64,000 nucleotides of DNA, from the NCBI GenBank assembly GCA_947164965.1, contig CAMUYR010000005.1, forward strand, positions 62,001 through 126,000. The letters run 5' to 3'. How positions within the stretch are numbered: position 1 is the stretch's first letter; each line of letters opens with the position of its first letter. The position numbers and the translations under genes were made by a program. The notes below the pieces were generated by a model, which had not been told where the DNA came from, did not search any database, and was given only the letters and a program-made list of their open reading frames with translations. Source of the stretch: an uncultured Prevotella sp. (GTDB taxonomy: Bacteria; Bacteroidota; Bacteroidia; Bacteroidales; Bacteroidaceae). Shown here piece after piece: positions 1-59,143 of the stretch.

Positions 1-3000
1 GATAGCCTTACGCTGAAGGATTATATGGATGCTCCGCAGCTCTTTGCCGCTTATCCTGAGCTGAAGGATGTCAAGGTTTCCCTTGCTCCTATGCCAGAGG
101 GTAAGGGTGGCAGTCTTGTGACTACTGAGGACTGGTTAGGCTTATCTGTCAACCAGAGCATCCAACTGAATGCTGAAACGATGACTTTGGCCCGTGACAG
201 CTACAGTATCTCTGCCCGTCAGAAGATTATTGACGCCTTCGACCATGAGGTGCAGCATGCTATTCAACAGGTTGAAGGTTTTGCACAAGGTGGCAGTCCC
301 GGCCAGCGTGTGATGTTGGAGGGTATTGCCTTGCAGCATGCCAAGGATGAGCTTGATACCATCCTTAGCAATCCCGACTATAAGGCTTGGCAGGAAGCCG
401 ATAAGAACTATCGCATTGCTTCCGACAAGCTCCAGGCTGTCTTGCAGCATGAGAACCGCAACTATGACGCCTTGGTACGTCTCACGGATGCTGAGAATGC
501 TGCCAAGCGTGAAGCCTATATGCTCTATAGTGTAGAGGTCAAGCATATGGATCAGCGTGCCGCTGTCCTTCGTGATCAGATAGAGAATGGTCTTGTTCTG
601 ACTTATGATGACTATCATAGGCTTGCTGGTGAGACCGAGGCCCGTGATGTCGTGCTTCGCAGGGGTCTGACCGATGAGCAGCGTCGTCAGACGCTTGCTT
701 CTGAGACCGAGGATGTTCCGAGGGATCAGCAGATAGTCACTTACGACAAGAGCCTGTTGGCTGCCAGCATGAGCAGGGAGGCTACTGTTATAGGCATGAG
801 TGATGCAGGTTATATGAACAGTCTTGCTTTGCAGCAGGCTGTCGAAGACCTTGCGGTCTCAGGCAATAAGGTTATTGCCGGTTATGAAGACCCAGAAACA
901 GGTGAGTATGTCTTTGTCGGCAATTCCGCTGACGTTCTCAGCCGTTATAAAGGCTCTTTCGGCAAGCTGCTGCATGGTGATGACATGTCTCGCTCTTCTG
1001 AGTTTAGAGTGCCAAGAAAGGACGGCAAGGACAGTGATAAGTTTGACATTCTCACTGCCAACCTCCTTCCAAAGGGCTATCGCTTTGCCGTCATCACCAA
1101 GGATAGGGTTCAGGAACTGTTGGCCCATCCTGAGTTGGCTACCGTTAAAACTCCTGTGAAAGATAAGTCTTCTGAGGAAGGCAAGATAGCTACGACTATT
1201 GCCATGCCGAAGGTCACCAGTGCCGTTCAGCTTGATCTTTTTGCCGACGGTCTTGCTGATGACAGTCAGCAGGAGCAGGCTCCAGTCTCTCGCGACCTCA
1301 GTCAGATCAGCTTGCCTGCCTTGGCTGATGGTGAGCATTGTTATGTCGAGCGAAAGTACACCGAGACAGGTGCTTTCAGCTTTGTCGCAGGTGACCACGT
1401 GGAGTCTTCTGCCGATGTCGCCTATATTTTCAAGTCTCTTGCCGATAAGTCTGTTGAAAACAGCTTCATTTGCATGGTCAAGGATGGTGTGCCTACTGTT
1501 ATTCATTTAGGCATTGGTTCTTCCGTTGCTGTCATGGCACCCATTGAGCAGGCTTTGGTTGCTTATGCAGAGCTGAAGCCGGAAAAGGTATGGTTCATCC
1601 ACAACCATCCTTCTGGTAGCTTGAAGGTCAGCCGTGAGGATATCGGTTTGCAGAAGCGTATGGTCAACATCTTCGGTGGTGCTACCCAGCCTGGTATTAT
1701 CATCAATACTACCAGCGGTAAGTTTGTCACCTATACCAGTGAGGCCGAGACCCTTGGTGAGGAGCAGATTACCGCTCTTGCTGGTAGCGACAATCCTGTC
1801 AAGGTCTGGTCTTTCGACCGTCAGGTCTTCTCTAAGGATTGGAACCCGCAGGAGTCTTACCAGGCTTCTACGGCTTCCCGTGTTGCTGCCTTTGTCAGCA
1901 GCCACCGTTACGGTGACCGTGATAAGCTCAATCTGCTTATTACCAACCATAACAACAATGTTACGGGTAATGTTTTCCTGCCTTGGACAGACATCAAGGA
2001 GGCTTGTACGCCTGATGGTGTCTCTCTCATTGCCCGTTATGTTCAGCAGATGGGCGGTACTGGCTGTTTCCTTTATGGCAGTGACAATGCCATGATCAAG
2101 AGAGAAACCAAGTCCCTGAACTACCTCTCTGCCCATCTGAACCAGTATAGTGTCATCCTCCGTGATGTGATGTCCGTTGTTGATGAGAATTACTATAGTG
2201 CTCACGAGCAGGGTATTCTTACCCCTTATGCCAGTGAGCGTAGTGTTGTGAAAGATGCAGTCTTTGAGGAACACGCTGTTTCACCAAAGACTTTCAAGTC
2301 TGGTGATATCATTATCACCCTGCCCGATTCTACCGGTGCCCGTAAGATTGGTCGTGTAGATAAGGTTGATGGCCAGTTGCTGCATTATACTGTCAGCAAC
2401 GGATATATCATGGTCGGTCAGTCCCAGTATTTGGATATGGCTACTGACTGGCGGTTGGCTACTGATGAAGAGCAGCAGGCTTTCCTTGATGAGGAAAAGC
2501 GTGTCCTTGCTACTGAGTCCGGTCAGGAGCAGCAGCGTCGCCAGAGCCAGTCCTCTGTTTCTCCTCGTCGTCTCACTGCTGAAGACCGTGAGGCTGGCAG
2601 TGCTATGGTTGATCACCTGCAGGCCATGGGTATCACGGTTTCTACGGATAGCCGTGAGAACCGTCGTGTCCTGAAGGATGCCCAGAAGGACCAGAGTGAG
2701 GCCGGTAAGGTGCGTCATTTCAAGACTGAGCAGGGCGATAGCTATGGCTTCGCCTATAAGGGTAAGATTCATCTTGACCTTCGTAAGATTGATGCCGAGC
2801 TGCCGCTTCATGAGTATGCCCATCTGTGGTGTGAGGCCCTGCGTCGTATCAATCCCGATAACTGGAACAGTGTCGTTACAATGATGAAGCAGGATGCCGA
2901 CACATGGCAGTTTGTCAAGTCTGCTTATCCTGAGCTGACTGATGATAACGATCTCGCAGAGGAGGTTATCGCCCATTATAGCGGTAAGCGCGGTGCCCAG

Positions 3001-6000
3001 AAGCTCCAGGCTGAGTTGGAGCGTATGACGCCGAGGGATGCTGATTACAGCAGCCGTTGGGGTAATATTTACCAGAATGTTGCCAAGGCTGTTCAGGACT
3101 TCTGGAAGCATATCGGTGACTCCTTGAACTTCCATTACGAGAGCAAGGAGGATATTGCCGACCAGATTTTGAATGACTTCGCCAAGCAGGTGAACCCTGT
3201 CCAGAAGGTTGAGAAATGGCTTGCAGCCCGTGATAAGGAGTATGCCGCTGCCGTTGAAGCAGGCGACATCGATAAGGCTCGCGACATGTTCTGGGAAGCT
3301 CTCCATGAGAATGTAGGTAATGGTATCACGCCGTTTATGGCCGTTGACGGCTACCGTGGTAAGCTTGATCAGCTTGCACATGCCGTCAAGGAGTTGGATA
3401 ATACCGATGCCATCATCAAGGCTGCCGACTTGATGGCTCCTTTCGTCCGTGCTGGTATGGTTCTTGTGCCTGCCCCAAGTCATACTGGTAAGGCTACTGA
3501 TATGAAGGATCTTGCTTGGGCTATCTCTCGTCGCTCTGGTGCGCCCGTTGCCGACGTTTTGGTCAGTGATTCCAGAGAGAGTCAGTATGAATATAAGTAT
3601 GCCCATGATGGTAAGGCCATGCCTGCCGATGCTCTTGGCATCCGTATGGAGGGTGAGCTTCCTGCTGACCGTCTGCCTGTTGTCATTGACAATGTCGTAC
3701 ATAGCGGTAATACCGCCGAGGCTTGTATCAAGGCTCTTGGTGGCGGTGTCGTGCTGGCTTTGGCCAGTGCCGTTTCTCAGGAGAAGCATGTCGCCTCCCT
3801 GAAGAGCCTTGCCCCTGTTGTCTATGACAAGGAAGGCAAGCTTATTCCGCTCTCTGAGCGTTTTGAGTTCAAGAACAAGTATCTTGGCCGCGTCATGAAC
3901 TATAAGGATATTCAGGAGATGTTGTCTGCTGTCGATGATCAGCCCGTCAGGGTTATCGGTGTCGGTAAGCGTATGGAGATACTTACCAAGGAGGCTATTA
4001 CTTCTGTTGACAATCCCCGTGTAGGTTATTCTAAAATGATTACCGACGGTAAGGATGCAGCAGGCAGTGAGCACCTGGAGCGTAACATCTTCTATGATGG
4101 CCGTCCCCTTGGTGCTGTCATGGCTGAAGTTGACCCGCAGGGTAAGGCTACTGTGTCCTATCTCCTTGATGTCCGCGTCCATCCGTTCGATATGGCCGAG
4201 AATGCCTGGGAAGGTATCGATGGCATGGAGTTGGATGAGGATTACGACTACGGCTGCATTCGCTTCGATGATGAAGCAACGATGGTTGCTTTCTACGAGT
4301 CCCATCGGGAGGAGATAGACTACCGTAACAGCCGTTACGACAATATTCAGGACACAGCATCCAATAAGGGTCAGGCTGCTGCCGAGACCCTGTCTCTGAA
4401 TATTCCAGTTCAGTATATCTTTAAGCCTGTTCCTCCCATGCAGGAATGGGTGGATGTAGCTGTTGACAAGACTTTCCTGAGCCGACCCCAAGAGGAGCAG
4501 GAGCGTTTGCGTTACCGCCAGGGCGAGACTCTGGAGGAGTATAAGAACCGTAACCAGCTCTATTGGGGTCATCCAGACTTCGCCTTGTATTTCTGGCAGA
4601 AGTATGCCGACCGTCAGGATGAGGTCAAGGCTATCCTTGGTGATGGTCTTACTGATGACAACTATCAGGATGTCATCCAGAAGATTGCCCGTCTTGTTGA
4701 CTCCAAGATTGAGGGTTACGAGATCCGCTCCTTGCTCAACTACAATAAGATGACGGAGCCTGTCCGCTTCCATGAAGTCTATGAGCAGGCTTTTGAACAG
4801 CGTCTGAAGGAGTACCGCGACCATCCTGTTCTGAAAGAGGTGCAGGGCCTGAAGGGCTACTCTGTTGATGAAATCAAGGAACTTGTCCGTAACCATATTG
4901 AGGACAATTATGGTGAGCTGTTCATGGATGACGGCTTTGTCATCAAGGAGATTACGATTATCGGAAGCCGCTCCCGTGGAGAGGCCCGTGAAGATAGTGA
5001 CCTCGACATCCTCCTGGAGTATGGCGGTACCGACATGAAAGAGGATGCAATGTTCAACATCCTCAATTACGAGCCTTTGGAGATTGAAGGTATCAAAGTT
5101 GACATCAATCCCATCTGTGAGCACTATTCCCTGAATACTGCCGACTGGCTGGCTCGTGATGCCATGTGGCGTGAGGAAGATTTGAAGAAACAACATAATA
5201 AGATCAAGAATATGGATATCAATGAGAATTTACAACAGTTACTCGCAGAGGTGATGCCTCGCGAGGGCATGCGCTATGATTTCGGCGCAGGATTTGTTGC
5301 TGACGACCTTGACCATCGTGTCACTAAGGATGAGCTGCTTGTAAAGACAGTGAAGAATACCGGAAACGGTTATCTTGCCGGTGAGGATATCGAGGGTTAT
5401 TTGAACCTCGGTCGCCTGTCTGTCAACGAGCAGAACTTCATCTACAAGCTCATCCGTGAGAAGCAACTTGCAGAGCTGATTGGTGAGGGTCGCCAGATGG
5501 ATTGGAATGGCCTTGGTGTCGGTTTCGACCAGAACCCCGACACTGGAAACTTCAAGGAGGCCCATCTTCGTATGCTGTCTGTCGAGAACGGTCAGCTTGT
5601 CTTCGATGGCACCATTACCGATGGTGACCATGTCGGTGAGGAGCCGCTTAATTTCATCAATCTGTCTGCCGACGGTATGGAGCGTATCTACAATGCCGTC
5701 CAGGAGGCTGTCAGTGAGAACAAGCAGGTTGTCAGTGACCTTGCAGCCCTCTATCAGACTGTCTTCCAGAAGGCTGTTGCCCTGAAGCCGCAGATTGACA
5801 CCCCTTCCGCTCTCTATGATGAGCTGAACGGTCTCTCCGCTCCTATCGAGCAGGGTGCTGCCGTCTCTTTGAAGGACTTTGCCGAGCAAGGAATGAAGGC
5901 CTTCAGTGCCGGTGATGCAGAGCATCAGCAGCTCAATGAGCTGACACAGGGTGGCTATCAGCGTTTCCTTGAAGATGTTCAAGGTCTTCGTGACGATCAG

Positions 6001-9000
6001 GTTAGCACGCTTGCCGCTTTGATGCAAGACCGCCGTGCTGCCTATAGCGTCACTGCCCTTGACAGTCTGTTGACTGGCACTATCCAGTACTATAACGACA
6101 ATCTTCCCAATGATGCTGTTGGTAATGACCTTATCGGCTTGCTGGGTGTCAACAACGGCAAGGATCTGATGGCTTGGGTCAACAATGGTGTTTCCAATCC
6201 CGGTGAGCGTCTGCAGCAGTTGAAGGAAGCCCTGGCTACCGTATCACTGTATGATGCTGACCGCCTTGTCCAGGCCAAGCGCCAGCGTGACAATCTCCCT
6301 GAGCGTATGGCCGAGGAGATTCGTCTGGCTCCCAAGACCCTCTTGGAAGGTCATTATGCCATGCTCATGAGTTATTATATGAATAACTTTGCTTTGCTCA
6401 GCACTGCTGAGAAGGCCGTCTTCCAGCGTCTTGACCGTGTAGAGACTCCCGATCAGCTCTCTCAGTGGGCCAGTGGTGTGCTGACAGGCACAACCCTTGC
6501 CGACCTTGCCGGTATTCCCGACTCTATCCGTGATGAAGTCTCCGCACTGGCTTATGACATTGCCGAGACCAACGATGAGGATATGACGAAGGTCATCGAG
6601 GGTCTTCATGGAATCGGTGTTGTCAATGACATGCACCTTGATGTGCTTGTCAAGGAAGTCAACCGTATGCGTCAGCAGGCTCCCGATGAAGTCACCCTGT
6701 TCAAGTCTGACGGTATGCTTACCGCTATCGGTGAGGATGCCTCTAAGGTCGTTCAGATGACTGGCTGGCCTGCCAGCCTCGTGAAGTATGGTCCTAACGA
6801 GTTCGCCCAGGTTCTGCATGTCAACAGTGACGGCTTCGACGTCCTCTCTGAGAAGGATCTGAATATCCGCGTGGTGTCTTCGCCTGTCAGCATGCGTCCT
6901 GTCATGGCCCAGTCCATGAACGACACTCTTTTTGCGTTAGAGACCATTGACTATAGTATCAGCATTGCACAGAAAGAACCTGTCCTCGTCGAAACCGATG
7001 GAAGTCTTCAGATTGGAAATTTCAAGGCTAAGACCCTTGACTTCCATCCTACGGGTCTTGATGCCATCGCCGAGGACGGCGAGAAACTGGTGATTCGCGA
7101 TATCCCCAAGAAGTACTTCCATCCGGAAGGTACGCTGGTTGTCGCCGACTATATCAATGGTCACAGAGAGACTATTGAGAATGCGCTGGCCATTGCCCAG
7201 CCTCTTGATTTCGAGCCTTACGACTCTCCCGATGAGGTACCCACGGTCTATGAGGAGTATAACCTGCTGAAACAGGTTCATCCTGATGAGGTACTGTTGT
7301 TCCGTCAGAAGGGCTTTGTTGAAGCCTTCGGTGAGGATGCGGAGCGTCTGAGCAAGGCTCTTGGCTTGCCGCTTTACGAGCGTCATCTTGACAATGCCAA
7401 TATCCGCTTTGCCATGATGAATGCCAATGATTATATGTCAGTGGCCGGTGATGCTGCCCTGGATGTCTATATAGCCATGCCGGAGGCTGCCGATACCCGT
7501 CAGGCTATCAGTCAGAGCCTTGTGCGCATGCAGGAGCATATTGCCGCTGATGCTGCCAAGAAGGATATTGCTGCCGAGATCTACCCCACTGGTGAGGGTA
7601 AGTACAGTGTCCGTCTGGTCAACGCCCAGACGTTGCACCAGATCAGCAATGCCGTTGAGCTGACTGCTGATGAAGCAGCCCGCTATCAGATGATGGTCGG
7701 TCCTTCCGCTATGTCCCAGCGTGGCGACTTTGTCATGGAGATGGCCGACAAGTATTTCGGTGAGGTCATCCGCATGAGTCAGGATGAGCAGAAGTACGAG
7801 AACATGCGTCAGCTCTTGCAGCAGCGATATGATGAGTTCGTCGCCAAGCATGACGAGGAGCCGCTTTATGCCGAGGTAACCATCCGCTATAAGGATGACG
7901 GTTCCTCGCATAGTGACATCATCAAGCTCAGCAGTGATGTTGATGAGCGTGACGATGACAAGATTTTCTTCTATGTCGATGGCATCCAAGATTTATTGAG
8001 GCTCGTACAGGAAGACAACGGTGAAGACTTTGACCTTACCGATATCCAAGAGACGCAGTTCTATGCTAAGAGTCTCTATCTTGGCAATGAGGTTACTGTG
8101 ACCATTGACCAGCTTCAGGAAAAGGCTGTCAGCCTGTTCGGTCAGAATTTCGAGTTTGATTTTTGGAATCCAGACAAGCCTGGTACCAAGATTGACCGCT
8201 TTGATCTTGGCGGCATGCCTGACACCATTTCCATTGATAAATTGGAGATTAAGGACGGGCATCTGTCATTGTATTCTAATGATATCGCCAATGATGTTGA
8301 CTTGCAGGCTTTGGATGCTGCCGAGCTTGCGAAGGTTGATGCCGCTCTTGATGATGTCAAGGCTTACCTCGGCCTTGCCGCCAAGGAGCAGGAGCTTGTC
8401 AATCTCGTTGGCAAGGGACAGCAGTTCCAGCTCTCCGAGCCTATGGTCATCAATGTCGATGACTTTGTGGCCAAGGATGTCATTGACAGTGTCTCTGTTA
8501 AGGATGACGGCACTATCGAACTATTGGGCCGTCGTATCGACGAGCAGGGTGCTTCTGCCAGCTTCTCGCTGGAAGGCCGTGGCGAATATGACCTGTCAGA
8601 TATTGACAAGGTCCTGGATGCCGTCAAATGGGATTTGAATGGTAAGGACAGCCTTTCTCTGTTGCGTAGCAATATCAAGGAAGTTGTTTCCTCTTTGAAT
8701 ATTTCCGAGTATGGCACCCTCTCTATCCCTGAGAATTTCCAGCGTAGGACTCCTACGGGTGAGATGATCACCCATGTCGGTGTCTCTCAGGACGGCACGA
8801 TTATGGTTCCGGCTATGGTCAGTGACCTTTCCCAGATAGACGATGTGAACACGCTTCGTGACATCTATCAGGGTGTCGCTGCTGCTGCCTTGGTGCAGGA
8901 GATTGCCAATAAGCAGGCTTTCAAGTCTGACGATTACAGCATCAAGGTTCGCTTCCAGGAACCTTTTGCCATGAGGGATGCCTATAAGGAGATGCGTCAG

Positions 9001-12000
9001 GTTTCCAGCGTCTCTCTCTCCTATGCCAATGGTGACCTGATTATCTATCCGTCAGAGCCTGACGGTATGACCATTGCCATGGGTGACGCTGACTCGATGC
9101 GTCTGTTGCTCGATAAGGTGCGTGCTGAGCAGCCTGCTGTTCAGTTGCAGGCCGACCATGAGTCTGTTCATGTGCAGTCTGCAGATGATAAGGTTGACAT
9201 TTACCGTCGTGTTCATGGTTGGATGCATGACGATCCTGCCCTTCTCTACAGCAATACCGATGTTGACGTGTTCTTCTATGACAATAAGACGAACACCGTT
9301 GAGAATATCGACAACGAGGCCGGTATTGACGCCTATGAGAACCGTGACGGTTTCTTCCTTGTAAGAGCTGAGGATTATGACGAAGCATATCGTCAGCTTG
9401 CCGAGCATGACCAGGATCAGGGTTTTGCCGACCCGCTCTCTGCTGAGGAGATGAAGGTTCTTGACAAGCACATGGCGAATGTCAAGAATGCCCTCCGTGC
9501 TACGGACACCAGCAAGTCTTTGCTGGCTCATGAGCTGACAGGTATTCTCATTGACCTGAATGTCCATGATGCGAAGAATATCCGTGAGTACTTCAGTAAC
9601 CTCTTCAAGGATATCAACAAGGAGGATAAGAAGGATTTGCGTCAGCAGTGGGATGCCATTGAGGGTCTTGCCGGTGGCAGCCTGCGTCAGCTTGCCTGGG
9701 CTGTTGCCTACAGGATGAGTGACGAACAGATCCGCATGATGGCCTTCGACCAGCTTCTCGAAGACAATAAGGATGTTCTGGAGCGTCTGAAGAACAGTCC
9801 TATCGACCATAGTCAGGACAAGCCCTATCATATCACCATCGGTGAAGACAACCGTCCGGGTGGCGTGGAAGGTGAGTATCACCTCCAGTTTAAGCCCGAC
9901 ATCATGCGTGTCACCTTTGGTGAGCAGGAGGATATCGCTAAGGAGTTTGGTGGTACGATGCGTGTTACCAATGGCGAGGAATGGGCTGATTTCTATGATG
10001 AGTCTTCTGCTGTCAAGTTCGCCGAGAAGGTCATTGCTTTGAATGCCGATCGTATTGTTGCCTCGCGCGACCATGCCGCTGAGGAGCGTCGTGAACAGCT
10101 CCGTACCCTCTTGGGTGAGGTTATAGGCACTCATGGCCAGTCTATCGCCATCAATCCTACTGATATTGGTGATGGTGTCAAGGCTGTCTATCTTTCCAAC
10201 AATAACGGAACCATCCTTTATGATGGTGAGAAGAATGGTGAGGGTTTGGTTAATCGTATACTCGACATTGACCATCTTTCCATTGCTTCTGCCCAGTTCC
10301 TGATGAATAGCATCAACAGTGTTCAGCAGAAGAAGCAGGAAAGTTATCTCCAGCCGCTCACTGTCGAGCAGTGGAAGGTCATGTCAGAGATAGGCTATCC
10401 CTATGCTCCAGGCAATGCCAAGGAGCATGATAATGCGCCTGTTCCTGAGATGATTTACTGGCGCTATGTTGCCGGTATGTTCTCGATGGATGATGTGGTA
10501 CGTTCCTTCAGCACCACCGGTTATACCGTTGGTGAGAATGCCGAGCGTTCCCGTGAGATTCTTGCCGAGCTTAACGAGAAGTATCACAAGCTCGATGGTG
10601 ACCTGAAGCCTATGGCTGCCAGGGAGCCTGCCCGTGAGAACGGCTCGTTCTCTGTTGAGGAGATTTTGAACCATGATGATAAGTTCCGCTATCAGCTCCT
10701 CAGTCGCATGCAGTCCGATGTCAAGTATTTCCTTGGCAACGGCAACCGTCACGTGCCCGACTTGTGGGCCGGTGATGTCGATAAGCATATCGACCTGATG
10801 TTCAAGTTGTGGGATTCCTTCAAGGAAAAGCCCGAATGGCTGAGCCGTGAGGAGATTGCCGCTTATGCTGAGCAGATGCGCCAGCCTGCCGATGTTGTGC
10901 AGCTTCGTCAGCTCAATAAGGAGTTGAAGGACATCCTCAAAGGTGCCGGTCTGGAGTATTCTCCGCTTGCTGAGAAGCTTGATATTACGTTAAAGCCAAT
11001 TCTTGGCAATTCAGATGATCAGCACTTGCATTATGCCAGCTTCGATGAAGAGCGCATCCACCTCTATGAGACCTATGAGGATGCCTTGGATCTTCGTAAC
11101 TATGAAATTATCGAAGAGCTGAGTCCTGAAAACCAGCTTAAACTGGTGAAGGGTCTTGTTGACTATTATCGTAATGAGAATAACAATGTCACTCTGCATG
11201 TTGACACCCAGCAGGTTCCGAGCTATGCCCTCTCTGCCATCATCAATGGCGATTTCAGTGGTATCGACTCAGAGGAGGATGCTCAGAACATCCGCGACTT
11301 CATGGAGCGTAAGGCTTATGAAGGTGCTGTCTTCAGCGTCCGTGAGGAGCATCCGTCCTTCACCAGCAGTCCTGCCTTCGGTCTGCCGACTGATTGTGTG
11401 GCTGTCGACATCCTGCGTACAGGTACTATCAAGCAGTTCCGTGAGGAGCATCTGGAGGCTTCCCGCAACCTGCCGTTCCCGGAGGTTGTCGAGGATGCCC
11501 GTGTCCGTCTTGACCATGCCTTGCAGGTTGCCCCGTTAGAGGTTGGTAAGGAGATGCACATCCCCGGCAATACTCATTTTGCCGTCAAGGACTACGACTG
11601 GTTCAACCTTCAGGAGCATATCAAGAATGGTGGAGGCATACCCCATGCCTATGCTTTGGTCAATGACCAAGAGAAGGGCCTTGGTTTCTTGATGGGTCGT
11701 GACGCTATCTTCACGCCTGTTGACAAGCTCCGTCAGGAAGACCTTGCCAAGCTCGTCTATGGCTATCAGTCTGCCATGCTTTATGAGCTTGTGAAGGCCA
11801 ATGGTGCTATCCAGCTTGATGAGCCTGTGGAGTTCGTTCATACCACTGCCCTTGGAGAGAATATCCAGGGAGCCATCAAGGAGGTCAGCATCCATGATGA
11901 CGTCCTTCGTTTCGACGGCATCCGTCAGTGGCCTGATGGTCATACCGAGAGTCTGAAGGGCTATGGTATCTCTGACGGTGGTATGGAATCACTCTTTAAT

Positions 12001-15000
12001 AAGGTGTTAGCTATGAATCTTCAGAAGGAGCATGCTGCCGTTGTTGGTGTCGATGAGACCCATCCTTTGCTGAACCGCCGTTACACCCCTGAGCAGGTTC
12101 AGTATGTCGTTGCCGGTCTTGGCGAATACCTTCAGAACATCGTCAATGAGCGCTATAATACCAATGGTGACATCTACAGTACCGAGGTTCAGGAGGGTAT
12201 GAAGGAGTATCTTGTTTCAAGTACCAATACCGCTCAGGATGCAGCCTACGACATGATGGTTCGCGTCCTGAAGAAGGCAGACATCAACAAGCCTGGCATT
12301 CTTGCCAGCTGGGGTGTTGATAACATCGAGGCTACAGCAGAGATGATTTCTCTCGATGCAGTCAAGGCTGCCGAGAAGAATATGCCACAGGAGAGCCGTG
12401 AGCAGCTTTCCGAGCGTCTTTGGAGCAAGCTCAACGAGCTGCTTCCTGAGAATGGTGACATGCTGTTGTTAAAGCAGCCGTTTACCATTACTGAGGCCCA
12501 AGACCTTGCTAAAGGTCAGACTATTGATGTTTTCAACATCCGTCGTTCCCTTTCTCCTGAATACGATGCTGTCTGTGTCTTCGTTTGTGGCGACAACAAA
12601 GGTGGTGTCAACACCTATCGTCTGACTGCTGACGATCTCCATAAGGTAGAAGCTATTCTGGAGAATAAGGATTATACCCTTTCCTTAAAGAAAGATGAAG
12701 GTGTAGAGCCAGAGCTTCGTGAAGCGAGAGGCTATTTGATGGATGTTATTAGTCAGGCCCTTGCAGAGATGAACGGTCATATTGAGATTTCGCATACCGA
12801 GCTTCCGTCCGTTCCTATCAAGGGCGACTGGCAGGATGAAGGTAACGGCTATCCCTATATGGAAGTCATTAAGGGTGATAATAATGTCAGGGATGCCGTC
12901 TTCTATGATGTTCATGCAGAGGCATACCCCATTGATGAGGTTATCGGCCAGCTTGACTATGCCGATACCTATGCTCTTACTATCGCTGTCCGCGAGGCTC
13001 AGATTGCCAATCTCGTTGGCAAGGGTGATGAGATCAGCTTCGTCGATGGTCTTGCTGTCTCTCAGGATGACCAGAGTATTGATAAGGATTATATCGATCT
13101 GATTAAGTTCGACCAGGACGGTAAGCTCAACATCATCGGTCACCGTCAGGATGCCGATGGTAACATTGTCAATTTTGACCATGGTGACATGATGTATCTC
13201 GATGGTTATGATGACCTGCTGGCAGCTGTCAAGGATTTGCGTGAGCAGGAGGCCTTGGAAGAGGAAGACATAGAGAATGTCTCTGAGGATGCCGGTATCA
13301 CTTTCTCCGATGATGACCAGAAAGTCATCAAGGAGGCCGTTGCCACCTATCTCACTCAGTATAACAGCGATTACTACCAGTCCGACGTTGATGTTGCCGG
13401 ACGTGTCGCTGCTGCCGACCTTGCCTCATGGTCTGACGTGAAGCGTCTTGGCAGTGAGATTGCAGAAGACATCCTCCGTGATGCTGACAGCCGTGATCCT
13501 GAGATTCTGGACCGTTATCTACCGGAGGGCATGAATACGATTGCCCACGAGTCACAGCGTATCGGTTCCGACACGCTGGAGAAGGCGAAGGTTGCCCTGT
13601 TCAACCACGAGCATTATATCGCCGATAACGTGAAGTCCAGGATTGCCGAGGTCAACGCTATGTTGCCAGAGTATAACGCGCTTCGTCGTGCTGCCGACAA
13701 CAATTTCATGTTCAGCCATCCTACCTCTGTCTACTCTTTGCAGCAGAACCCGCGTGATCCCCAGCAGTTTGCCTTGATTGCTGTCAAGGATGGCAATGGC
13801 GAGTATGCCACCGCCTTCCTGGAGTTGCCGGAAGTCATGGCTAAGGTTGAGAAGATTGAGAATGATTTAATAACAGAATATCCACAACTTAAAGATTTTA
13901 CAGCTATGGAAGAGAACAAGCAAGAAGAGGTTGCTCAGCAGCAGGAAGCTCAGGAGCAGCAGGTGAACAACGAGCAGCAGGCTAAGCCTGCAGCTAAGAA
14001 GGGCTGGAATATCGACTACTCCAAGTACCAGATTCCAGAGGGTATGACTGTCGAGAAGGCCCAGGTCTTCAAGCTCACTACGGGAGCCAATGCCGGTAAG
14101 TATGCCGTCAGTGCCGTCATCAATGGTGAGCGTAAGACTCAGTCTATGTATAAGAATGATGTCGATGCCTATTTCAACAAGGATGACAACGGCGTCCGCA
14201 AGGCTACTGCCGAGCAGCTTGCCGTCAAGTATTTCGATCCCAACACTCTGAAGAAGTCCGTTCCTGTCAAGGAAGAGACACCTTCTGAGCAGCAGGAGCA
14301 GGCTGAAGGCCAGGCTCAGGAGCCTAAGAAGGCTGCTGGCGAGAAGAAAAATCCTTTCGCCAATATCGACTACTCCAAGTACCAGATTCCAGAGGGTATG
14401 ACTGTTGAGAAGGCTAATGTCTTCAAGCTCTCGCAGGGTCCGAATGCCGGTAAGTATGCCGTCTCTGCCCTTGTCAATGGCCAGCGTCAGCTTCGCGTTC
14501 TGTATAAGAACGACCTTGATGCTTACTTCCAGCGTGGCGAGAATGGTGAGCGTCGTGCTACCCTCGATCAGCTCATTGCCAAGTATTTCGGTAAGACTGC
14601 CGAGAGCATGGCTGTAGGTTCTGTTCAGGAAGCCGAGCATCTTGTCCAGGAGCAGCAGGAGGATAAGGATAAGAAGGCCAAGGCCGCTGCCGACAAGGCT
14701 CAGGAGGAGCAGAAGAAGCAGGAAGAGCAGAAGAAGGCTGAGGAAGCCAAGAAGAAGGAGGATAAGAAGTCCGTTCCTGTCTCTATCGTCCAGGCCCAGT
14801 TGATTACTGGCGCTCTTGTGGCTGCTGCCGCTGCTGATGGTGTCTTCATGAATAAGGATGGTAAGAAATCTCCTGATTTCGCATCCCGTGAGCACATGAC
14901 CATCAGCCCGTTCAATGCCATGATGATGGCTCTGCATTCCGATGCCAACGGTTTCAAGACCAACCAGTATGTCACCTTCGGTGATGCCTCCAGCAACGGC

Positions 15001-17058
15001 TATTCCGTCAAGAAGGGCGAGTCTGGTCTTAGCTACAACTGGTATGCCCATGACAAGTATGTCAATCGCTTCGATGCTGAGAATATCATATCCAAGGAAG
15101 AGTTCGAAGCCCTTCCTGCTGATAAGAAGGAGCTTTATAAGCAGCTTCGTGTCCGTGAGGAGAAGAGCATCTTCAATATCGACCAGACCACGATGGTTCA
15201 TCATAAGAAGGACGAGTACAATGCCATCCTCGCTGCTGAGGATAAGGCTGTTGTCGGTCGTGGTCAGAAGGAGTCCTTTGAGGGTTATTCCAATATCGAG
15301 AATCTGAAGAAGGACAACAACATCAATGCCATGTTGCTGCTCCGCACCGGTAATGACACTTATGAGCTTCACGGTGAGGATGCTGTCAAGGCAGGCAGTA
15401 TTCTTGGTTTGAAGGTTGCCGACCATCCCGATATGAAGGATGCTGAAGGTACTGCCGTCAAGGTTGTCAGCTTCCCTGTTGCCGATCTTGACTCTGTCCT
15501 TCCGAAGATTATCCGCAGTGGTGAGCGTGTTGCTATCGCCGACAAGCCTGAGAGTGAGGCTGTCATTAAGCGCTATGGCACTGCTGACCGTATCTACAAG
15601 GATATCGCCGACCTCACCGAGAAGATGAAGGTTGCCGGTGGTGACAAGGTCATCATCAGTTCTATCCATGAGACGGGTTACGACCGTGAGACTGGTATTC
15701 TCCATATCAACGACTCCCGTGTCTCTGCCCCTGGTGAGGAAGTCAAGACTGCCATCTCCCGTGCTAACGACCTCTACCGTGCCGTCGCTCTCTATACCGG
15801 TGCTGCCGACCGTCTGAACCGTGGCGGTAAGCTGCTGCCGGAGGATGCCGTCAAGTATGACCGTCTCGTTTCCGAGCTTTCTGCCGGTGTTCTGATGAGC
15901 CGTAAGGGTCTGCCTGCTGCCCTCTCTTCTGAGAGCATGCAGATGGTTCCATATTTTGAGCGTGAGCTGAAGGAGGATTCCAAGCTTGTCTCACGCCTGG
16001 AGAGTGATGTCAACAATGCCGTCAAGGTTGTCGGTATGCTTCGCAAGGGTGAAGCCGTTGACTATGCTGCCATTCGTGGTGAGAAGTCCATCGAGTCTAT
16101 GCGTCCGAAGTTCTACACCATCTCTTCCGACCTGGCCACCTATCCTGATATGGTGACGAAGACTGTTGTCCTTGTGAAGGACATGCAGAACAAGAGTGCC
16201 GCTGTCATTCTGCCAGCCGGTGCTTCTCTGGAGGTGAAGAACGAGGTTCCTGGCATGAGCAAGGAGCGTATTGCCATTTCCCTGAAGAAGGAAGGCTTCG
16301 ACGGCGACAAGATTACTTTCTACAATGCCGGTGGCTCCCTGGGCCTGAATCAGCCCAATGAGTTCTTCGCCGACAAGGAGGTGCTGGTCGGTCACCTGAA
16401 GCAGTATGAGTTTGTTGTTGACCAGACCCTCGATTTGAAGGAGGAGATTGCCCGTACAGGCATGGTTGACATCGAGCAGGTGTCTATGATCAAGGATGAC
16501 GAGAACCGTAATGTCCTGTATATCAAACCTGCCGAGGGCAAGCCTATCACCGTCTATCCTGAGCCTGCCGACATCAAGATGTTCTTCAACAGTCTCCGTA
16601 CTGAGAACTTCGATGCCGTCCGTGAGAACCTTGGTCAGAAGTACTATGCTTTCGTCAAGCAGTTCCCGGAGATGGAGGCTGGCGTGCTGATGCCTGAGAT
16701 TCCCGAGGGTGTCGACATGAGCCGTATTTCTAAGGTCAATATCGCCAAGGATAAGTACAACGACAAGCAGTATGTGCTCTTCGCCCAGATCGATGACGAG
16801 AAGGTTCATCATGCCCTCACCCCCGATCAGGCCAGCCGTCTCTTCCTTGTCGATGACAAGTCTCTTTATAAGCAGCTCCTCGCTGCCGTTCTCTTCGGAG
16901 AGAAGTTAGGTATCGCGGAGGGCCAGGAGGCTGCCCAGTTTCGTGACAATCACGAAGGACAGGGTGACCATAATGTGGAAGAAGCCGGTCAAGCACCAGA
17001 AGTCGACTCTCAGGAAGAAGATAACGAAGAGCGCCGTGCAGGAGGTATGCATCGTTAA
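1..17058 (+). CDS. Giant polyvalent protein (>=5.68 k aa, 5'-truncated by window edge): zincin, RadC/JAB-like, second zincin, phosphoribosyltransferase-like, MNT-type nucleotidyltransferase, MutS-domain-I-like repeats, DUF3945-like modules
   Basis: Single ORF open from base 1 (DSLTLKDYMDAPQLFAAYPELKD...). Motifs read in translation: FDHEVQHAI (~241-270), VWFIHNHPSGS (~1590-1625), LPLHEYAHLW (~2803-2830), VVIDNVVHSGNTAE (~3680-3720), GSRSRGEAREDSDLDILLEY (~4960-5020), HPDEVLLFRQKGFVEAFGEDAE (~7276-7341), duplicated NIDYSKYQIPEGMTVEKA modules (~14008, ~14362). Confidence 0.9.
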   Translation, partial: DSLTLKDYMDAPQLFAAYPELKDVKVSLAPMPEGKGGSLVTTEDWLGLSVNQSIQLNAETMTLARDSYSISARQKIIDAFDHEVQHAIQQVEGFAQGGSPGQRVMLEGIALQHAKDELDTILSNPDYKAWQEADKNYRIASDKLQAVLQHENRNYDALVRLTDAENAAKREAYMLYSVEVKHMDQRAAVLRDQIENGLVLTYDDYHRLAGETEARDVVLRRGLTDEQRRQTLASETEDVPRDQQIVTYDKSLLAASMSREATVIGMSDAGYMNSLALQQAVEDLAVSGNKVIAGYEDPETGEYVFVGNSADVLSRYKGSFGKLLHGDDMSRSSEFRVPRKDGKDSDKFDILTANLLPKGYRFAVITKDRVQELLAHPELATVKTPVKDKSSEEGKIATTIAMPKVTSAVQLDLFADGLADDSQQEQAPVSRDLSQISLPALADGEHCYVERKYTETGAFSFVAGDHVESSADVAYIFKSLADKSVENSFICMVKDGVPTVIHLGIGSSVAVMAPIEQALVAYAELKPEKVWFIHNHPSGSLKVSREDIGLQKRMVNIFGGATQPGIIINTTSGKFVTYTSEAETLGEEQITALAGSDNPVKVWSFDRQVFSKDWNPQESYQASTASRVAAFVSSHRYGDRDKLNLLITNHNNNVTGNVFLPWTDIKEACTPDGVSLIARYVQQMGGTGCFLYGSDNAMIKRETKSLNYLSAHLNQYSVILRDVMSVVDENYYSAHEQGILTPYASERSVVKDAVFEEHAVSPKTFKSGDIIITLPDSTGARKIGRVDKVDGQLLHYTVSNGYIMVGQSQYLDMATDWRLATDEEQQAFLDEEKRVLATESGQEQQRRQSQSSVSPRRLTAEDREAGSAMVDHLQAMGITVSTDSRENRRVLKDAQKDQSEAGKVRHFKTEQGDSYGFAYKGKIHLDLRKIDAELPLHEYAHLWCEALRRINPDNWNSVVTMMKQDADTWQFVKSAYPELTDDNDLAEEVIAHYSGKRGAQKLQAELERMTPRDADYSSRWGNIYQNVAKAVQDFWKHIGDSLNFHYESKEDIADQILNDFAKQVNPVQKVEKWLAARDKEYAAAVEAGDIDKARDMFWEALHENVGNGITPFMAVDGYRGKLDQLAHAVKELDNTDAIIKAADLMAPFVRAGMVLVPAPSHTGKATDMKDLAWAISRRSGAPVADVLVSDSRESQYEYKYAHDGKAMPADALGIRMEGELPADRLPVVIDNVVHSGNTAEACIKALGGGVVLALASAVSQEKHVASLKSLAPVVYDKEGKLIPLSERFEFKNKYLGRVMNYKDIQEMLSAVDDQPVRVIGVGKRMEILTKEAITSVDNPRVGYSKMITDGKDAAGSEHLERNIFYDGRPLGAVMAEVDPQGKATVSYLLDVRVHPFDMAENAWEGIDGMELDEDYDYGCIRFDDEATMVAFYESHREEIDYRNSRYDNIQDTASNKGQAAAETLSLNIPVQYIFKPVPPMQEWVDVAVDKTFLSRPQEEQERLRYRQGETLEEYKNRNQLYWGHPDFALYFWQKYADRQDEVKAILGDGLTDDNYQDVIQKIARLVDSKIEGYEIRSLLNYNKMTEPVRFHEVYEQAFEQRLKEYRDHPVLKEVQGLKGYSVDEIKELVRNHIEDNYGELFMDDGFVIKEITIIGSRSRGEAREDSDLDILLEYGGTDMKEDAMFNILNYEPLEIEGIKVDINPICEHYSLNTADWLARDAMWREEDLKKQHNKIKNMDINENLQQLLAEVMPREGMRYDFGAGFVADDLDHRVTKDELLVKTVKNTGNGYLAGEDIEGYLNLGRLSVNEQNFIYKLIREKQLAELIGEGRQMDWNGLGVGFDQNPDTGNFKEAHLRMLSVENGQLVFDGTITDGDHVGEEPLNFINLSADGMERIYNAVQEAVSENKQVVSDLAALYQTVFQKAVALKPQIDTPSALYDELNGLSAPIEQGAAVSLKDFAEQGMKAFSAGDAEHQQLNELTQGGYQRFLEDVQGLRDDQVSTLAALMQDRRAAYSVTALDSLLTGTIQYYNDNLPNDAVGNDLIGLLGVNNGKDLMAWVNNGVSNPGERLQQLKEALATVSLYDADRLVQAKRQRDNLPERMAEEIRLAPKTLLEGHYAMLMSYYMNNFALLSTAEKAVFQRLDRVETPDQLSQWASGVLTGTTLADLAGIPDSIRDEVSALAYDIAETNDEDMTKVIEGLHGIGVVNDMHLDVLVKEVNRMRQQAPDEVTLFKSDGMLTAIGEDASKVVQMTGWPASLVKYGPNEFAQVLHVNSDGFDVLSEKDLNIRVVSSPVSMRPVMAQSMNDTLFALETIDYSISIAQKEPVLVETDGSLQIGNFKAKTLDFHPTGLDAIAEDGEKLVIRDIPKKYFHPEGTLVVADYINGHRETIENALAIAQPLDFEPYDSPDEVPTVYEEYNLLKQVHPDEVLLFRQKGFVEAFGEDAERLSKALGLPLYERHLDNANIRFAMMNANDYMSVAGDAALDVYIAMPEAADTRQAISQSLVRMQEHIAADAAKKDIAAEIYPTGEGKYSVRLVNAQTLHQISNAVELTADEAARYQMMVGPSAMSQRGDFVMEMADKYFGEVIRMSQDEQKYENMRQLLQQRYDEFVAKHDEEPLYAEVTIRYKDDGSSHSDIIKLSSDVDERDDDKIFFYVDGIQDLLRLVQEDNGEDFDLTDIQETQFYAKSLYLGNEVTVTIDQLQEKAVSLFGQNFEFDFWNPDKPGTKIDRFDLGGMPDTISIDKLEIKDGHLSLYSNDIANDVDLQALDAAELAKVDAALDDVKAYLGLAAKEQELVNLVGKGQQFQLSEPMVINVDDFVAKDVIDSVSVKDDGTIELLGRRIDEQGASASFSLEGRGEYDLSDIDKVLDAVKWDLNGKDSLSLLRSNIKEVVSSLNISEYGTLSIPENFQRRTPTGEMITHVGVSQDGTIMVPAMVSDLSQIDDVNTLRDIYQGVAAAALVQEIANKQAFKSDDYSIKVRFQEPFAMRDAYKEMRQVSSVSLSYANGDLIIYPSEPDGMTIAMGDADSMRLLLDKVRAEQPAVQLQADHESVHVQSADDKVDIYRRVHGWMHDDPALLYSNTDVDVFFYDNKTNTVENIDNEAGIDAYENRDGFFLVRAEDYDEAYRQLAEHDQDQGFADPLSAEEMKVLDKHMANVKNALRATDTSKSLLAHELTGILIDLNVHDAKNIREYFSNLFKDINKEDKKDLRQQWDAIEGLAGGSLRQLAWAVAYRMSDEQIRMMAFDQLLEDNKDVLERLKNSPIDHSQDKPYHITIGEDNRPGGVEGEYHLQFKPDIMRVTFGEQEDIAKEFGGTMRVTNGEEWADFYDESSAVKFAEKVIALNADRIVASRDHAAEERREQLRTLLGEVIGTHGQSIAINPTDIGDGVKAVYLSNNNGTILYDGEKNGEGLVNRILDIDHLSIASAQFLMNSINSVQQKKQESYLQPLTVEQWKVMSEIGYPYAPGNAKEHDNAPVPEMIYWRYVAGMFSMDDVVRSFSTTGYTVGENAERSREILAELNEKYHKLDGDLKPMAAREPARENGSFSVEEILNHDDKFRYQLLSRMQSDVKYFLGNGNRHVPDLWAGDVDKHIDLMFKLWDSFKEKPEWLSREEIAAYAEQMRQPADVVQLRQLNKELKDILKGAGLEYSPLAEKLDITLKPILGNSDDQHLHYASFDEERIHLYETYEDALDLRNYEIIEELSPENQLKLVKGLVDYYRNENNNVTLHVDTQQVPSYALSAIINGDFSGIDSEEDAQNIRDFMERKAYEGAVFSVREEHPSFTSSPAFGLPTDCVAVDILRTGTIKQFREEHLEASRNLPFPEVVEDARVRLDHALQVAPLEVGKEMHIPGNTHFAVKDYDWFNLQEHIKNGGGIPHAYALVNDQEKGLGFLMGRDAIFTPVDKLRQEDLAKLVYGYQSAMLYELVKANGAIQLDEPVEFVHTTALGENIQGAIKEVSIHDDVLRFDGIRQWPDGHTESLKGYGISDGGMESLFNKVLAMNLQKEHAAVVGVDETHPLLNRRYTPEQVQYVVAGLGEYLQNIVNERYNTNGDIYSTEVQEGMKEYLVSSTNTAQDAAYDMMVRVLKKADINKPGILASWGVDNIEATAEMISLDAVKAAEKNMPQESREQLSERLWSKLNELLPENGDMLLLKQPFTITEAQDLAKGQTIDVFNIRRSLSPEYDAVCVFVCGDNKGGVNTYRLTADDLHKVEAILENKDYTLSLKKDEGVEPELREARGYLMDVISQALAEMNGHIEISHTELPSVPIKGDWQDEGNGYPYMEVIKGDNNVRDAVFYDVHAEAYPIDEVIGQLDYADTYALTIAVREAQIANLVGKGDEISFVDGLAVSQDDQSIDKDYIDLIKFDQDGKLNIIGHRQDADGNIVNFDHGDMMYLDGYDDLLAAVKDLREQEALEEEDIENVSEDAGITFSDDDQKVIKEAVATYLTQYNSDYYQSDVDVAGRVAAADLASWSDVKRLGSEIAEDILRDADSRDPEILDRYLPEGMNTIAHESQRIGSDTLEKAKVALFNHEHYIADNVKSRIAEVNAMLPEYNALRRAADNNFMFSHPTSVYSLQQNPRDPQQFALIAVKDGNGEYATAFLELPEVMAKVEKIENDLITEYPQLKDFTAMEENKQEEVAQQQEAQEQQVNNEQQAKPAAKKGWNIDYSKYQIPEGMTVEKAQVFKLTTGANAGKYAVSAVINGERKTQSMYKNDVDAYFNKDDNGVRKATAEQLAVKYFDPNTLKKSVPVKEETPSEQQEQAEGQAQEPKKAAGEKKNPFANIDYSKYQIPEGMTVEKANVFKLSQGPNAGKYAVSALVNGQRQLRVLYKNDLDAYFQRGENGERRATLDQLIAKYFGKTAESMAVGSVQEAEHLVQEQQEDKDKKAKAAADKAQEEQKKQEEQKKAEEAKKKEDKKSVPVSIVQAQLITGALVAAAAADGVFMNKDGKKSPDFASREHMTISPFNAMMMALHSDANGFKTNQYVTFGDASSNGYSVKKGESGLSYNWYAHDKYVNRFDAENIISKEEFEALPADKKELYKQLRVREEKSIFNIDQTTMVHHKKDEYNAILAAEDKAVVGRGQKESFEGYSNIENLKKDNNINAMLLLRTGNDTYELHGEDAVKAGSILGLKVADHPDMKDAEGTAVKVVSFPVADLDSVLPKIIRSGERVAIADKPESEAVIKRYGTADRIYKDIADLTEKMKVAGGDKVIISSIHETGYDRETGILHINDSRVSAPGEEVKTAISRANDLYRAVALYTGAADRLNRGGKLLPEDAVKYDRLVSELSAGVLMSRKGLPAALSSESMQMVPYFERELKEDSKLVSRLESDVNNAVKVVGMLRKGEAVDYAAIRGEKSIESMRPKFYTISSDLATYPDMVTKTVVLVKDMQNKSAAVILPAGASLEVKNEVPGMSKERIAISLKKEGFDGDKITFYNAGGSLGLNQPNEFFADKEVLVGHLKQYEFVVDQTLDLKEEIARTGMVDIEQVSMIKDDENRNVLYIKPAEGKPITVYPEPADIKMFFNSLRTENFDAVRENLGQKYYAFVKQFPEMEAGVLMPEIPEGVDMSRISKVNIAKDKYNDKQYVLFAQIDDEKVHHALTPDQASRLFLVDDKSLYKQLLAAVLFGEKLGIAEGQEAAQFRDNHEGQGDHNVEEAGQAPEVDSQEEDNEERRAGGMHR

Positions 17059-17170: not shown

Positions 17171-18748
17171 ATGACTCCAGAGAAGCAACAATTCTACGAG
17201 CGTCTTGCCCCTGCTGCCATGGAACAGCAGATTAAGTACGGCATCCCTGCCTCCGTCACCTTGGCGCAGGCATGGATAGAGCATGGCAACTATTCCAAGG
17301 ACACCAACAACTATTTCGGCATCCATGACGATGACGGTTGGTGGCGTAGGAATGGCGGTCAGACCGTTATTCTTAACGACCACGGGAGGATGGCCCATTT
17401 CCGTGTTTATAACTCTATGGAGCAGGGCATCGAAGACCATTCCAAGTTTTTCTTCCGTCAGAACTCCCGATATAGTGCCGCCCATGGTGTTTCATCCACT
17501 GATGAGAAGTTCGCCGAGAAGTGGGCCTATACCATCTGCCGTGCCGGTTATGCTGAGCGTCCCAAGGATAACCCTGACCGTTACGCCAAGTCCATCATGG
17601 GCGAGATCAATTCCTATGACCTCACCCGTTTTGACCGTCAGGCCAATGCCCTTGCCGCCCAGCGCGGTACTGCCGTCGGTTATATGCGTGGTCAGGGTGC
17701 TGCTGCCATGCAGCCTTCTGTCGGTTCCGGATATGCCCAGTCCGGTGCATCGCAAGGCTCGTCTGTTGCTGTTTCCAACGGCTACTGCTTCCCTGTTGCC
17801 GGTCTGAACCTTGTTATGTCTGATGGTTACGGTATTGCTCCTACGGGCTACCGTGACCATCCCCATAACGGTATTGATCTGAGAGCCAAATACCAGGATG
17901 TCTTCGCTACCGAGAATCAGGGTAAGGTTGTCGATACGGGCTATCAGAAGTCCGGCGGTAACTATGTTGTTGTCGAGTACGACCGTGCCGATGGTGCCAA
18001 GTGGCGTGTAAGCTATTGTCACCTGAAGGACATCAATGTCAGGAAAGGTGACACGGTGGATGCCGGCAAGGTGCTTGGTGTCTCTGGTAATTCTGGTAAC
18101 AGTACCGGTCCTCATCTGCATCTGACTGTCAAGCGTCAGGAGGCAGGCAGTAGTGAGTTCAAGACTGTTGACCCTCTGCGTTATCTCGCCGAGGTCTCTG
18201 TCAGGGGTAACCTTCAGGGTACCGTTTTGAAGAAAGGCACCAATAACGATCTCCTTGCCAGTCTGAAGGCTGGTGTTGACACCAGACCTACTCCTGCCGA
18301 TGAGCTTCTGTTGGCTCAGCGGTCAGGTAGTCCGCAACTGCAAGGTAGCCAGTATCAGCAGGGCGCTGTCGCCATGCAGCAGCCGTTGAGTGCTGATGCC
18401 CTTGTGCAGCAGTTCGGCCAGGCTAACGATCCCTTGCAGATGCTCTCCTATATGATGCAGCAGCAGAATATCCAGGGTAGCAGCGAGGGTTTCCTGAGCG
18501 GTATGATTTCCACCCTCTTCAAGGGTGCCATGCTCCTTGCTTTACAGCTCCAGAACGGAAACGGACAGGAGCCTGTAGATCAGGCAGAGCAGATGGCAGA
18601 CACCCGTACCCCCGAACAGCGGAAGTTAGACGCCGTTTTACGTCGTCGTGAGACTCCTGATGTCGAGAAGGCCCGTCAGATGGCTTCCATGTCCTTTGAC
18701 GCCGAGAGTCCCGAACAGCAGCAGAATGCCGGTGTTCGTCTCGCTTAG
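17171..18748 (+). CDS. Glucosaminidase (GH73/FlgJ-like) + M23 peptidase, no obvious signal peptide
   Basis: N-term YGIPASVTLAQAWIEHGNYSKDTNNYFGI...; C-term half GIDLRAKYQDVFATENGKV...YCHLKDINVRKGDTV..GNSGNSTGPHLHLTV (M23 HxH). Confidence 0.85.
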   Translation: MTPEKQQFYERLAPAAMEQQIKYGIPASVTLAQAWIEHGNYSKDTNNYFGIHDDDGWWRRNGGQTVILNDHGRMAHFRVYNSMEQGIEDHSKFFFRQNSRYSAAHGVSSTDEKFAEKWAYTICRAGYAERPKDNPDRYAKSIMGEINSYDLTRFDRQANALAAQRGTAVGYMRGQGAAAMQPSVGSGYAQSGASQGSSVAVSNGYCFPVAGLNLVMSDGYGIAPTGYRDHPHNGIDLRAKYQDVFATENQGKVVDTGYQKSGGNYVVVEYDRADGAKWRVSYCHLKDINVRKGDTVDAGKVLGVSGNSGNSTGPHLHLTVKRQEAGSSEFKTVDPLRYLAEVSVRGNLQGTVLKKGTNNDLLASLKAGVDTRPTPADELLLAQRSGSPQLQGSQYQQGAVAMQQPLSADALVQQFGQANDPLQMLSYMMQQQNIQGSSEGFLSGMISTLFKGAMLLALQLQNGNGQEPVDQAEQMADTRTPEQRKLDAVLRRRETPDVEKARQMASMSFDAESPEQQQNAGVRLA

Positions 18749-19408: not shown

Positions 19409-19474
19409 TTTGGTTGGTAGGGAGGGGATTCCTCCCTCTCCCTGCCGTCCTTTGTGTTTTACTTAAAAGTTAAG

Positions 19475-29441: not shown

Positions 29442-29720
29442 TTATTTTGAATTGATACTATCTATAGGTTCTGAATAGACCTTTATTGCCCCTTTGGTAA
29501 AAATATCCCCGAAAAAGTTTCCGGCATTACCCAACCAGACCTTAATATCCTCGAAACCGTCCTTGTTACTATCAATACACTCTTTTTCTGGTATATCCTT
29601 TTTTAAGTTTTTGCTTTTATTTTCGCAAAAGTTAATAAGGAAATACCCCATCACCGCCAGATAAAGAAAAAGCAGTGCCGGGAAAATAAATTTCGGCTGT
29701 TTAAAATTTATCTTTTTCAT
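29442..29720 (-). CDS. Small single-TM hypothetical protein
   Basis: FIFPALLFLYLAVMGYFLINF. Confidence 0.5.
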   Translation of the reverse strand: MKKINFKQPKFIFPALLFLYLAVMGYFLINFCENKSKNLKKDIPEKECIDSNKDGFEDIKVWLGNAGNFFGDIFTKGAIKVYSEPIDSINSK

Positions 29721-59015: not shown

Positions 59016-59083
59016 TGTTTCCTATCTATAAAATTGTAACTTCACAAAGTTACGACAGATAGGAAACACAAAAGAAAATAATC

Positions 59084-59112
59084 AAAACTTTGTCTTGATT
59101 TAACTCATTTAA
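59084..59112 (-). promoter_or_regulatory. Copy 4 (slightly diverged) of repeated upstream element
   Basis: aaaactttgtcttgatttaactcattta, 69 bp upstream of 59015, with TAACTTTG downstream on the minus strand. Confidence 0.7.
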
Positions 59113-59143
59113 GACCGTTTTATGCTAAAAAACGGCTAATTAA

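Follow-up and report, generated by a model that had tools for sequence, protein, structure and literature searches.

What kind of protein is encoded by a reading frame that is already open at the first base of this DNA and runs on for 17,058 bases, and what might so large a protein do for the element that carries it? The window analysed here is a stretch of 64,000 nucleotides. It covers positions 62001-126000 of C5, which is 166,918 bp long and one of 81 contigs in its genome assembly. A first-pass annotation of the window had described the frame as a polyvalent protein of the sort carried by phages and conjugative elements. As considered below, we believe that this assignment is right, and that the last few residues of the protein may direct it into recipient cells.

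Frame, modules and plasmid context of the giant protein

After the contig was rebuilt, frame +1, which contributes 5,685 codons to the window before its stop at 17058, was found to continue upstream in the same frame to an ATG at C5:47124 (MAYNKHQKL...), 14,877 bases upstream of window base 1, with an in-frame TTG two codons before this ATG. The single uninterrupted frame of the first-pass annotation is therefore real, while the size given there, more than 5,677 aa, was a correct lower bound for a protein about twice as long, at 10,644 aa. Chance is not expected to give an open frame of 10,646 codons, and the codon-position G+C is similar throughout its length. Long antisense ORFs, for example one of 971 aa at 2281-5196 (-), have no Pfam match and were taken as shadow frames.

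Several biochemically unrelated domains are joined in this one polypeptide (Table 1), and the giant adds a new member to the polyvalent proteins. Its N-terminal part carries the motifs of a DarB-like methylase-helicase dyad, namely NIPFG (a variant of NPP(Y/F)), Walker A GTGKT and DESH. This dyad, ART-PolyVal, LPD23 and a further zincin had escaped the first-pass annotation because they lie outside the window. Within the window, profile matches confirmed its RadC/JAB (HNHPSG), MNT-type nucleotidyltransferase (NTP_transf_2/MNT) and MutS-I modules, the last at two sites with another upstream; the metal motif of RadC is intact in the 10,644-aa copy, and both long copies keep the full set of catalytic MNT residues. 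The ArdC-N domain scores above its Pfam cut-off, in keeping with ArdC membership. Both HExxH motifs read as zincins are present, the second (nt 2809) as part of a domain with paralogues and the first (nt 244) as a motif alone. The PRPP-type loop proposed for a PRTase is likewise kept in relatives, as DNVxx[TS]GxT, with DN in 6/6 aligned sequences and the second acidic residue absent; an AlphaFold model of moderate quality built from 6 sequences (pLDDT 58, pTM 0.60) resembles PurF-type PRTases, which rank first against the PDB with a probability of 0.99 but an E-value of 4e-3. A joint PRTase-MNT model from 2 sequences was unusable (pLDDT 38), and a PDB sequence search returned weak MNT matches only. 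What did not stand were the 'DUF3945-like' modules, as Pfam DUF3945 has no match to the two 76-aa repeats.

Table 1. Modules of the giant protein and neighbouring genes; positions are those of the window
Feature	Window position	Strand	Residues of the giant	Evidence or remark
DarB-like N6-methylase + SNF2 helicase	upstream of window		1-1850	phrog_10089 'DarB-like antirestriction' 3.5e-136 and 9e-125
Type I R-subunit C-terminal-like	upstream of window		2525-2615	
MutS-I, first of three	upstream of window		2717-2824	Pfam 3.5e-32
Zincin, HEYTH at 4166	upstream of window		4121-4313	
ART-PolyVal	upstream of window		4441-4822	2.9e-15
LPD23	upstream of window		4848-4889	
C-terminal part of the giant, 5,685 codons	1..17058	+		frame open to stop
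Zincin-type HEVQH, motif only	244..258	+	5043	sequence motif
RadC/JAB, HNHPSG-x7-D metal motif intact	1405..1671	+	5430-5518	Pfam PF04002 2.7e-6
Zincin with HEYAH (nt 2809)	2665..3216	+	5850-6033	paralogous to residues 4121-4313 and to neighbour gene
Probable PRTase, PRPP loop VVIDNVVHSGNTA	3430..3867	+	~6105-6250	loop has DN, not usual DD
MNT, GSRSRGEAREDSDLDI plus VDINPI	4837..5205	+	6574-6696	Pfam PF01909 5e-5; NCBIfam MntA 0.0016
MutS-I, second of three	7252..7416	+	7379-7433	Pfam 5.3e-9
LPD11 polyvalent-associated domain	10681..10878	+	8522-8587	Pfam 1.5e-25
DUF6926	11206..11415	+	8697-8766	Pfam 1.8e-12
Two 76-aa repeats, 70% identical, Q/E/K-rich linker	14008..14590	+	~9630-9830	
ArdC-N ssDNA-binding module, start of region colinear with slot protein	14785..15279	+	9890-10054	Pfam 1.4e-5
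MutS-I, third of three	15310..15567	+	10065-10150	Pfam 5.1e-9
C-terminal domain common with ~800-aa ArdC-N proteins (16 related elements)	15763..16929	+	10216-10604	
Tail EERRAGGMHR, candidate translocation signal	17026..17055	+	10637-10646	
Glucosaminidase + M23 peptidase (peptidoglycan hydrolase)	17171..18748	+		syntenic neighbour
Conserved 202-aa neighbour	18800..19408	+		no Pfam match
1,359-aa protein with zincin domain	19454..23533	+		zincin homologous to the giant's; tail DESRGMHR
ArdC-like antirestriction protein, 459 aa	23534..24913	+		tail EEHRPHRGR
DUF4099 protein, 269 aa	25323..26132	-		tail AMRQMHV
Type IV coupling protein (MobC/VirD4-like), 783 aa	30934..33285	-		Pfam PF02534 1.1e-17, NCBIfam MobC
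MobV relaxase	43597..45108	-		NCBIfam NF041497 8.7e-44; basic C-terminus RPPGRKLKR

The giant belongs to a conjugative plasmid found in a Prevotella-like gut bacterium. Its contig encodes a TraG/VirB4-type ATPase (5e-120), a coupling protein, a MobV relaxase, TopB, ParA and a T4SS gene set, and about 30 contig proteins match the complete Prevotella plasmid pE2-28 (78% identity for TraG, 76% for the coupling protein). TraG, MobC, MobV and the synteny with pE2-28 mark a T4SS-encoding element, and conjugation genes, domains and synteny together bear out the polyvalent protein of a conjugative element proposed before. We hold the architecture and the element assignment with very high confidence.

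Other parts of the contig deserve a brief record. A 347-aa ORF at 29717-30760 (-) appears to be a decayed, incomplete copy of the adjoining coupling protein and matches the same pE2-28 coupling gene as the full protein does. A BsuBI/PstI-type restriction endonuclease and a methylase make up a type II R-M pair at 49773-52258 (-), and at 57816-60379 (-) a stand-alone reverse transcriptase (RVT_1 1.6e-7) adjoins a clostripain-family protease, the nearest PADLOC models being RT/DRT, none of them decisive. Just to the right of the window, at C5:130522-136791 (L006:4522-10791), the contig that carries the conjugation genes also encodes core components of type IX secretion: GldN, GldM (Pfam 3.7e-57), GldL and a GldK-like protein with an FGE domain. 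A plasmid-borne T9SS core would be unusual.

Neither the size of the giant nor any one domain type is new, since a 12,242-aa polyvalent protein and these domain types were described by Iyer et al., 2017 (PMC5512222). Like the proteins of that study, the giant combines a methylase-helicase dyad, zincins, ART, RadC, Pol-beta NTase, a probable PRTase, ArdC-N, MutS-I and LPD in one polypeptide of giant size in a conjugative context; it has DN in the PRTase loop where theirs have DD, and the Pol-beta NTase there comes mainly from Firmicutes. The likeness to DarB of phage P1, a virion antirestriction methylase-helicase, resides in the N-terminal 1,850 aa that match DarB-like phrog_10089, whereas the giant is encoded on a conjugative plasmid, has ~8,800 further residues fused to this part, and reads NIPFG for NPPY/F.

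A C-terminal tail on unrelated cargo proteins

The giant, the adjacent zincin protein and ArdC end in a common pattern, E(-10)..G-[M/F]-[H/R]-R-COOH, which in relatives is also borne by a DUF3991/Toprim primase and a 221-aa protein; the tail-bearing families are ArdC, ~800-aa ArdC-N proteins, the 221-aa protein, the DUF3991/Toprim primase, the zincin protein and the giants. With the pattern defined post hoc from the first tails observed, and among ORFs of at least 130 aa, it ends 49/340 in 18 element regions and 1/376 in background loci (Fisher 6e-16), and 21/306 (4e-7) when the ArdC-type families through which the loci had been retrieved are removed. Inside the same proteins it occurs at 0.08% per position. 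Glu at -10, which lies outside the pattern's definition, is found in 31/43 tails, and the preceding stretch is D/E/Q-rich. The codons of the tail are degenerate (Arg, His, Gly), with all six Arg and both His codons in use, while the residues are constant, which indicates that selection acts on the peptide. On account of this degeneracy, a DNA-level element at gene ends was rejected. Type IX secretion was also rejected as the source of the tails because the cargo, upon inspection, has no Sec signal peptide.

Among the ArdC homologues found across the family, an ending of [MFLHYI][HR]R or HRGR is present in 21/21 close ones, counting the analysed protein, as against 0/9 distant ones; an order-level search returned two distant ArdC relatives only, both in one genome. 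The primases of the same element type carry the strict tail in 15/22 cases and a near-variant in 7/22, in a set that contains several near-identical copies and from which two loci with a wrong frame were left out.

Related observations extend to other Bacteroidota elements. In B. finegoldii plasmid 78 (NZ_OY725888), the DUF4099 protein ends in AAGIHK, Toprim in SHFHR, the zincin-polyvalent protein in RGFHR, ArdC in GGMRR and a 214-aa protein in GGMKR, all of them annotated CDS. Adjacent DUF4099, DUF3945 and Toprim proteins of pBFY46 and pBF9343 (L165:19361-22769, L168:18193-21587) share an ending of [LIMF]-K-[IL] type, with tails NNIKL/TSLKI/KSLKI and HKFKL/PTMKL/KSIKL, respectively. In the elements of B. 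fragilis GUT04 and pBuniCL06T06-1, zincin/ArdC, DUF4116, methylase-helicase and other proteins share instead a C-terminal domain of ~85 residues with a GW-containing stretch at its end, absent from Pfam (L169:602-13027, L170:10464-16611), which is another candidate delivery domain. Across a hand-collected table of 18 elements, the tails of different families covary (permutation p = 2.5e-4), with exceptions: ArdC or primase proteins of pBF9343, pBFY46 and pMMCAT lack a shared tail (ArdC in the case of pBFY46/pBF9343), and so does the Toprim protein of pE2-28.

A tail shared across different cargo families appears to be new, as far as the open-access literature that we searched extends, subscription journals lying outside it. 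The terms 'C-terminal signal' and 'secretion signal' are absent from the 2017 study, and the shared tail is undescribed there (PMC5512222).

A putative translocation signal and its alternatives

We propose that the giant is a multi-tool establishment protein of the conjugative plasmid that is directed into the recipient by its tail, and we would put the probability of this mechanism as a whole at roughly 0.6. The shared tail would act as an element-specific conjugative translocation signal. During mating, the plasmid's own coupling protein/T4SS would recognise the tail that the giant has in common with ArdC and the zincin protein, with the DUF4099 protein in a variant form and, among relatives, with primases, and the giant would then enter the recipient along with the DNA. 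Once there, the methylase-helicase and ArdC-N/MutS-I modules might shield the incoming DNA from restriction, and the zincin, ART, MNT, PRTase and RadC modules might process the polyprotein or modify targets in the recipient, judging by what is known of these families. For every module, the novel anti-defence role suggested in the first-pass annotation is conjecture.

Such a role fits known precedents: many T4SS signals lie at the C-terminus and have a basic character (PMC10025392, PMC11288057), and ArdC and the TraC1 primase are cited by Iyer et al., 2017 as moving with DNA (PMC5512222). The tail, like these signals, is a shared C-terminal ending, basic or hydrophobic, on the cargo. As with the Arg-rich tails of VirF/VirE2, BID and XVIPCD (PMC10025392, PMC11288057), a basic end at the C-terminus is common to the cargo of one system; the candidate tail differs from them in being a very short fixed G-[MF]-[HR]-R preceded by acidic residues and in varying by element type. 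Some considerations count against the mechanism. ArdC of R388 works when the recipient produces it and not when the donor does, although export was not ruled out in that case (PMC7213743). The relaxase, which is certain to be a substrate, ends in a basic sequence that follows a different pattern (RPPGRKLKR), a chain of ~1.2 MDa would need to be threaded unfolded through the T4SS, and the tail could serve another shared partner.

The last point leads to an alternative that we regard as possible, if somewhat doubtful, in which the tail serves as a degron, or docks the proteins that bear it onto one cytosolic partner, such as a protease adaptor or a relaxosome scaffold, and the giant acts in the donor or after its synthesis in the recipient. 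Proteases or adaptors classically recognise short peptides exposed at the C-terminus, the tail-bearing proteins are plausibly in one complex, and the behaviour of recipient-expressed R388 ArdC would be accommodated. However, the tail is found mainly on establishment-type cargo of conjugative elements, in relatives including the DUF3991/Toprim primases, and a primase, TraC1, is among the proteins cited as transferred. Moreover, the tail differs by element type, which fits element-specific machinery better than a host protease.

It is improbable that the shared tail lacks a function of its own and merely reflects descent from one ancestral C-terminus. ArdC and the ~800-aa proteins do share ArdC-N/MPTase homology by clustering, but the tail persists behind linkers and MutS-I domains whose presence varies, the Toprim primase, 221-aa and zincin proteins bear it and do not cluster with ArdC, and its residues stay constant over degenerate codons. 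Quite improbable, in our view, is a giant whose main role is in a toxin-antitoxin system or in defending the plasmid against other elements; the MNT domain weakly matches the MntA antitoxin and the PADLOC candidate family PDC-S09, but the MntA score is 18.3 against a cut-off of 60, the neighbouring ORFs scanned contain no HEPN toxin partner, the methylase-helicase matches antirestriction DarB best, and PADLOC yields partial domain matches only.

If the tail is a translocation signal, the idea might be carried further. We consider the chances evenly balanced that conjugative and mobilisable elements of Bacteroidota mark a whole set of otherwise unrelated establishment proteins with a C-terminal address that is specific to each element and is recognised by its own transfer machinery. 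Such addresses would be G-[MF]-[HR]-R in the giant's plasmids, [LIMF]-K-[IL] in the pBF9343 type and the ~85-residue GW domain in the GUT04 type, and they would span ArdC, primase, zincin, DUF4099/DUF3945 and methylase-helicase proteins as well as the giants.

Relatives and growth of the giant

A search of 300 family genomes with a middle segment of the giant returned its own copy and one relative on a phage-like contig, with a frame of 6,562 codons; a genome-wide scan found a 7,182-codon frame with 70% identity to the middle region on an uncultured Prevotella MAG contig, and the viral contigs scanned for it contained no relative. The protein of this MAG, a syntenic homologue of 7,176 aa, is 75% identical to the giant over the first 2,000 residues and 71% over the last 1,080, with colinear blocks between these ends and several stretches present in one copy only. 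Over eight colinear blocks, dN/dS is 0.13-0.28 in seven, synonymous sites being saturated in the eighth.

An assembly chimera or a decaying pseudogene, both raised by the first-pass annotation as ways in which the giant could prove spurious, is extremely unlikely, except as regards the exact order of modules unique to the 10,644-aa copy: the fragmentation into 81 contigs and the extreme length would favour such an artefact, but the independent syntenic homologue, the intact frame, the purifying selection in the measurable blocks and the occurrence in other polyvalent proteins of several stretches that the 7,176-aa homologue lacks leave it unsupported.

A 6,547-aa polyvalent protein has six modules in common with the giant, in another order, and does not carry the C-terminal tail; it is encoded on a phage contig (G133:C19, L064-L065) that also bears portal and terminase genes. 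The common modules suggest exchange between phage and plasmid polyvalent proteins.

How might a protein of this size have arisen? Versions of the methylase-helicase form a size series of ~1,940, 2,446, 3,138, 3,234, 3,368, 7,176 and 10,644 aa, of which ~1,940 aa is the usual length in the family and 3,234 aa is that of the pE2-28 version, whose annotation says no more than 'helicase-related protein'. The slot flanked by a ~470-660-aa protein (C5:44891 type) and by the glucosaminidase/M23 gene holds an ordinary ArdC-N protein of 670-880 aa in 16 related elements; in the analysed plasmid and in genome G301 it holds a giant instead. Residues 9890-10646 of our giant, the last 755, are colinear with the ~800-aa ArdC-N/MutS-I slot protein, beginning close to its N-terminus and running through to its tail. 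Compared with ArdC of pSa/R388 and the ~800-aa ArdC-N/MPTase/MutS-I proteins of Bacteroidales conjugative elements, the giant is alike in slot and tail, and it has ~9,900 residues added in front and, in the copy analysed, no Pfam match to MPTase. This colinearity and synteny, together with the DarB-like N-terminus, show that the giant grew by accretion inside a cargo gene, with the direction and order of events being inferred. A DarB-like methylase-helicase would have joined the front of an ordinary ArdC-N protein, and further modules would have been inserted ahead of the ArdC-N protein, which already bore the C-terminal tail of the plasmid.

The proposal made in 2017 that polyvalent proteins travel with DNA rested mostly on domain content and a few precedents. 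The shared terminal peptide would make their translocation directly testable, and the giant points to a route of growth, the insertion of modules inside a gene already carrying the address. If the tail is indeed an address, the protein cargo of conjugation in Bacteroidota, an important route of gene exchange in the gut, could be listed from sequence alone.
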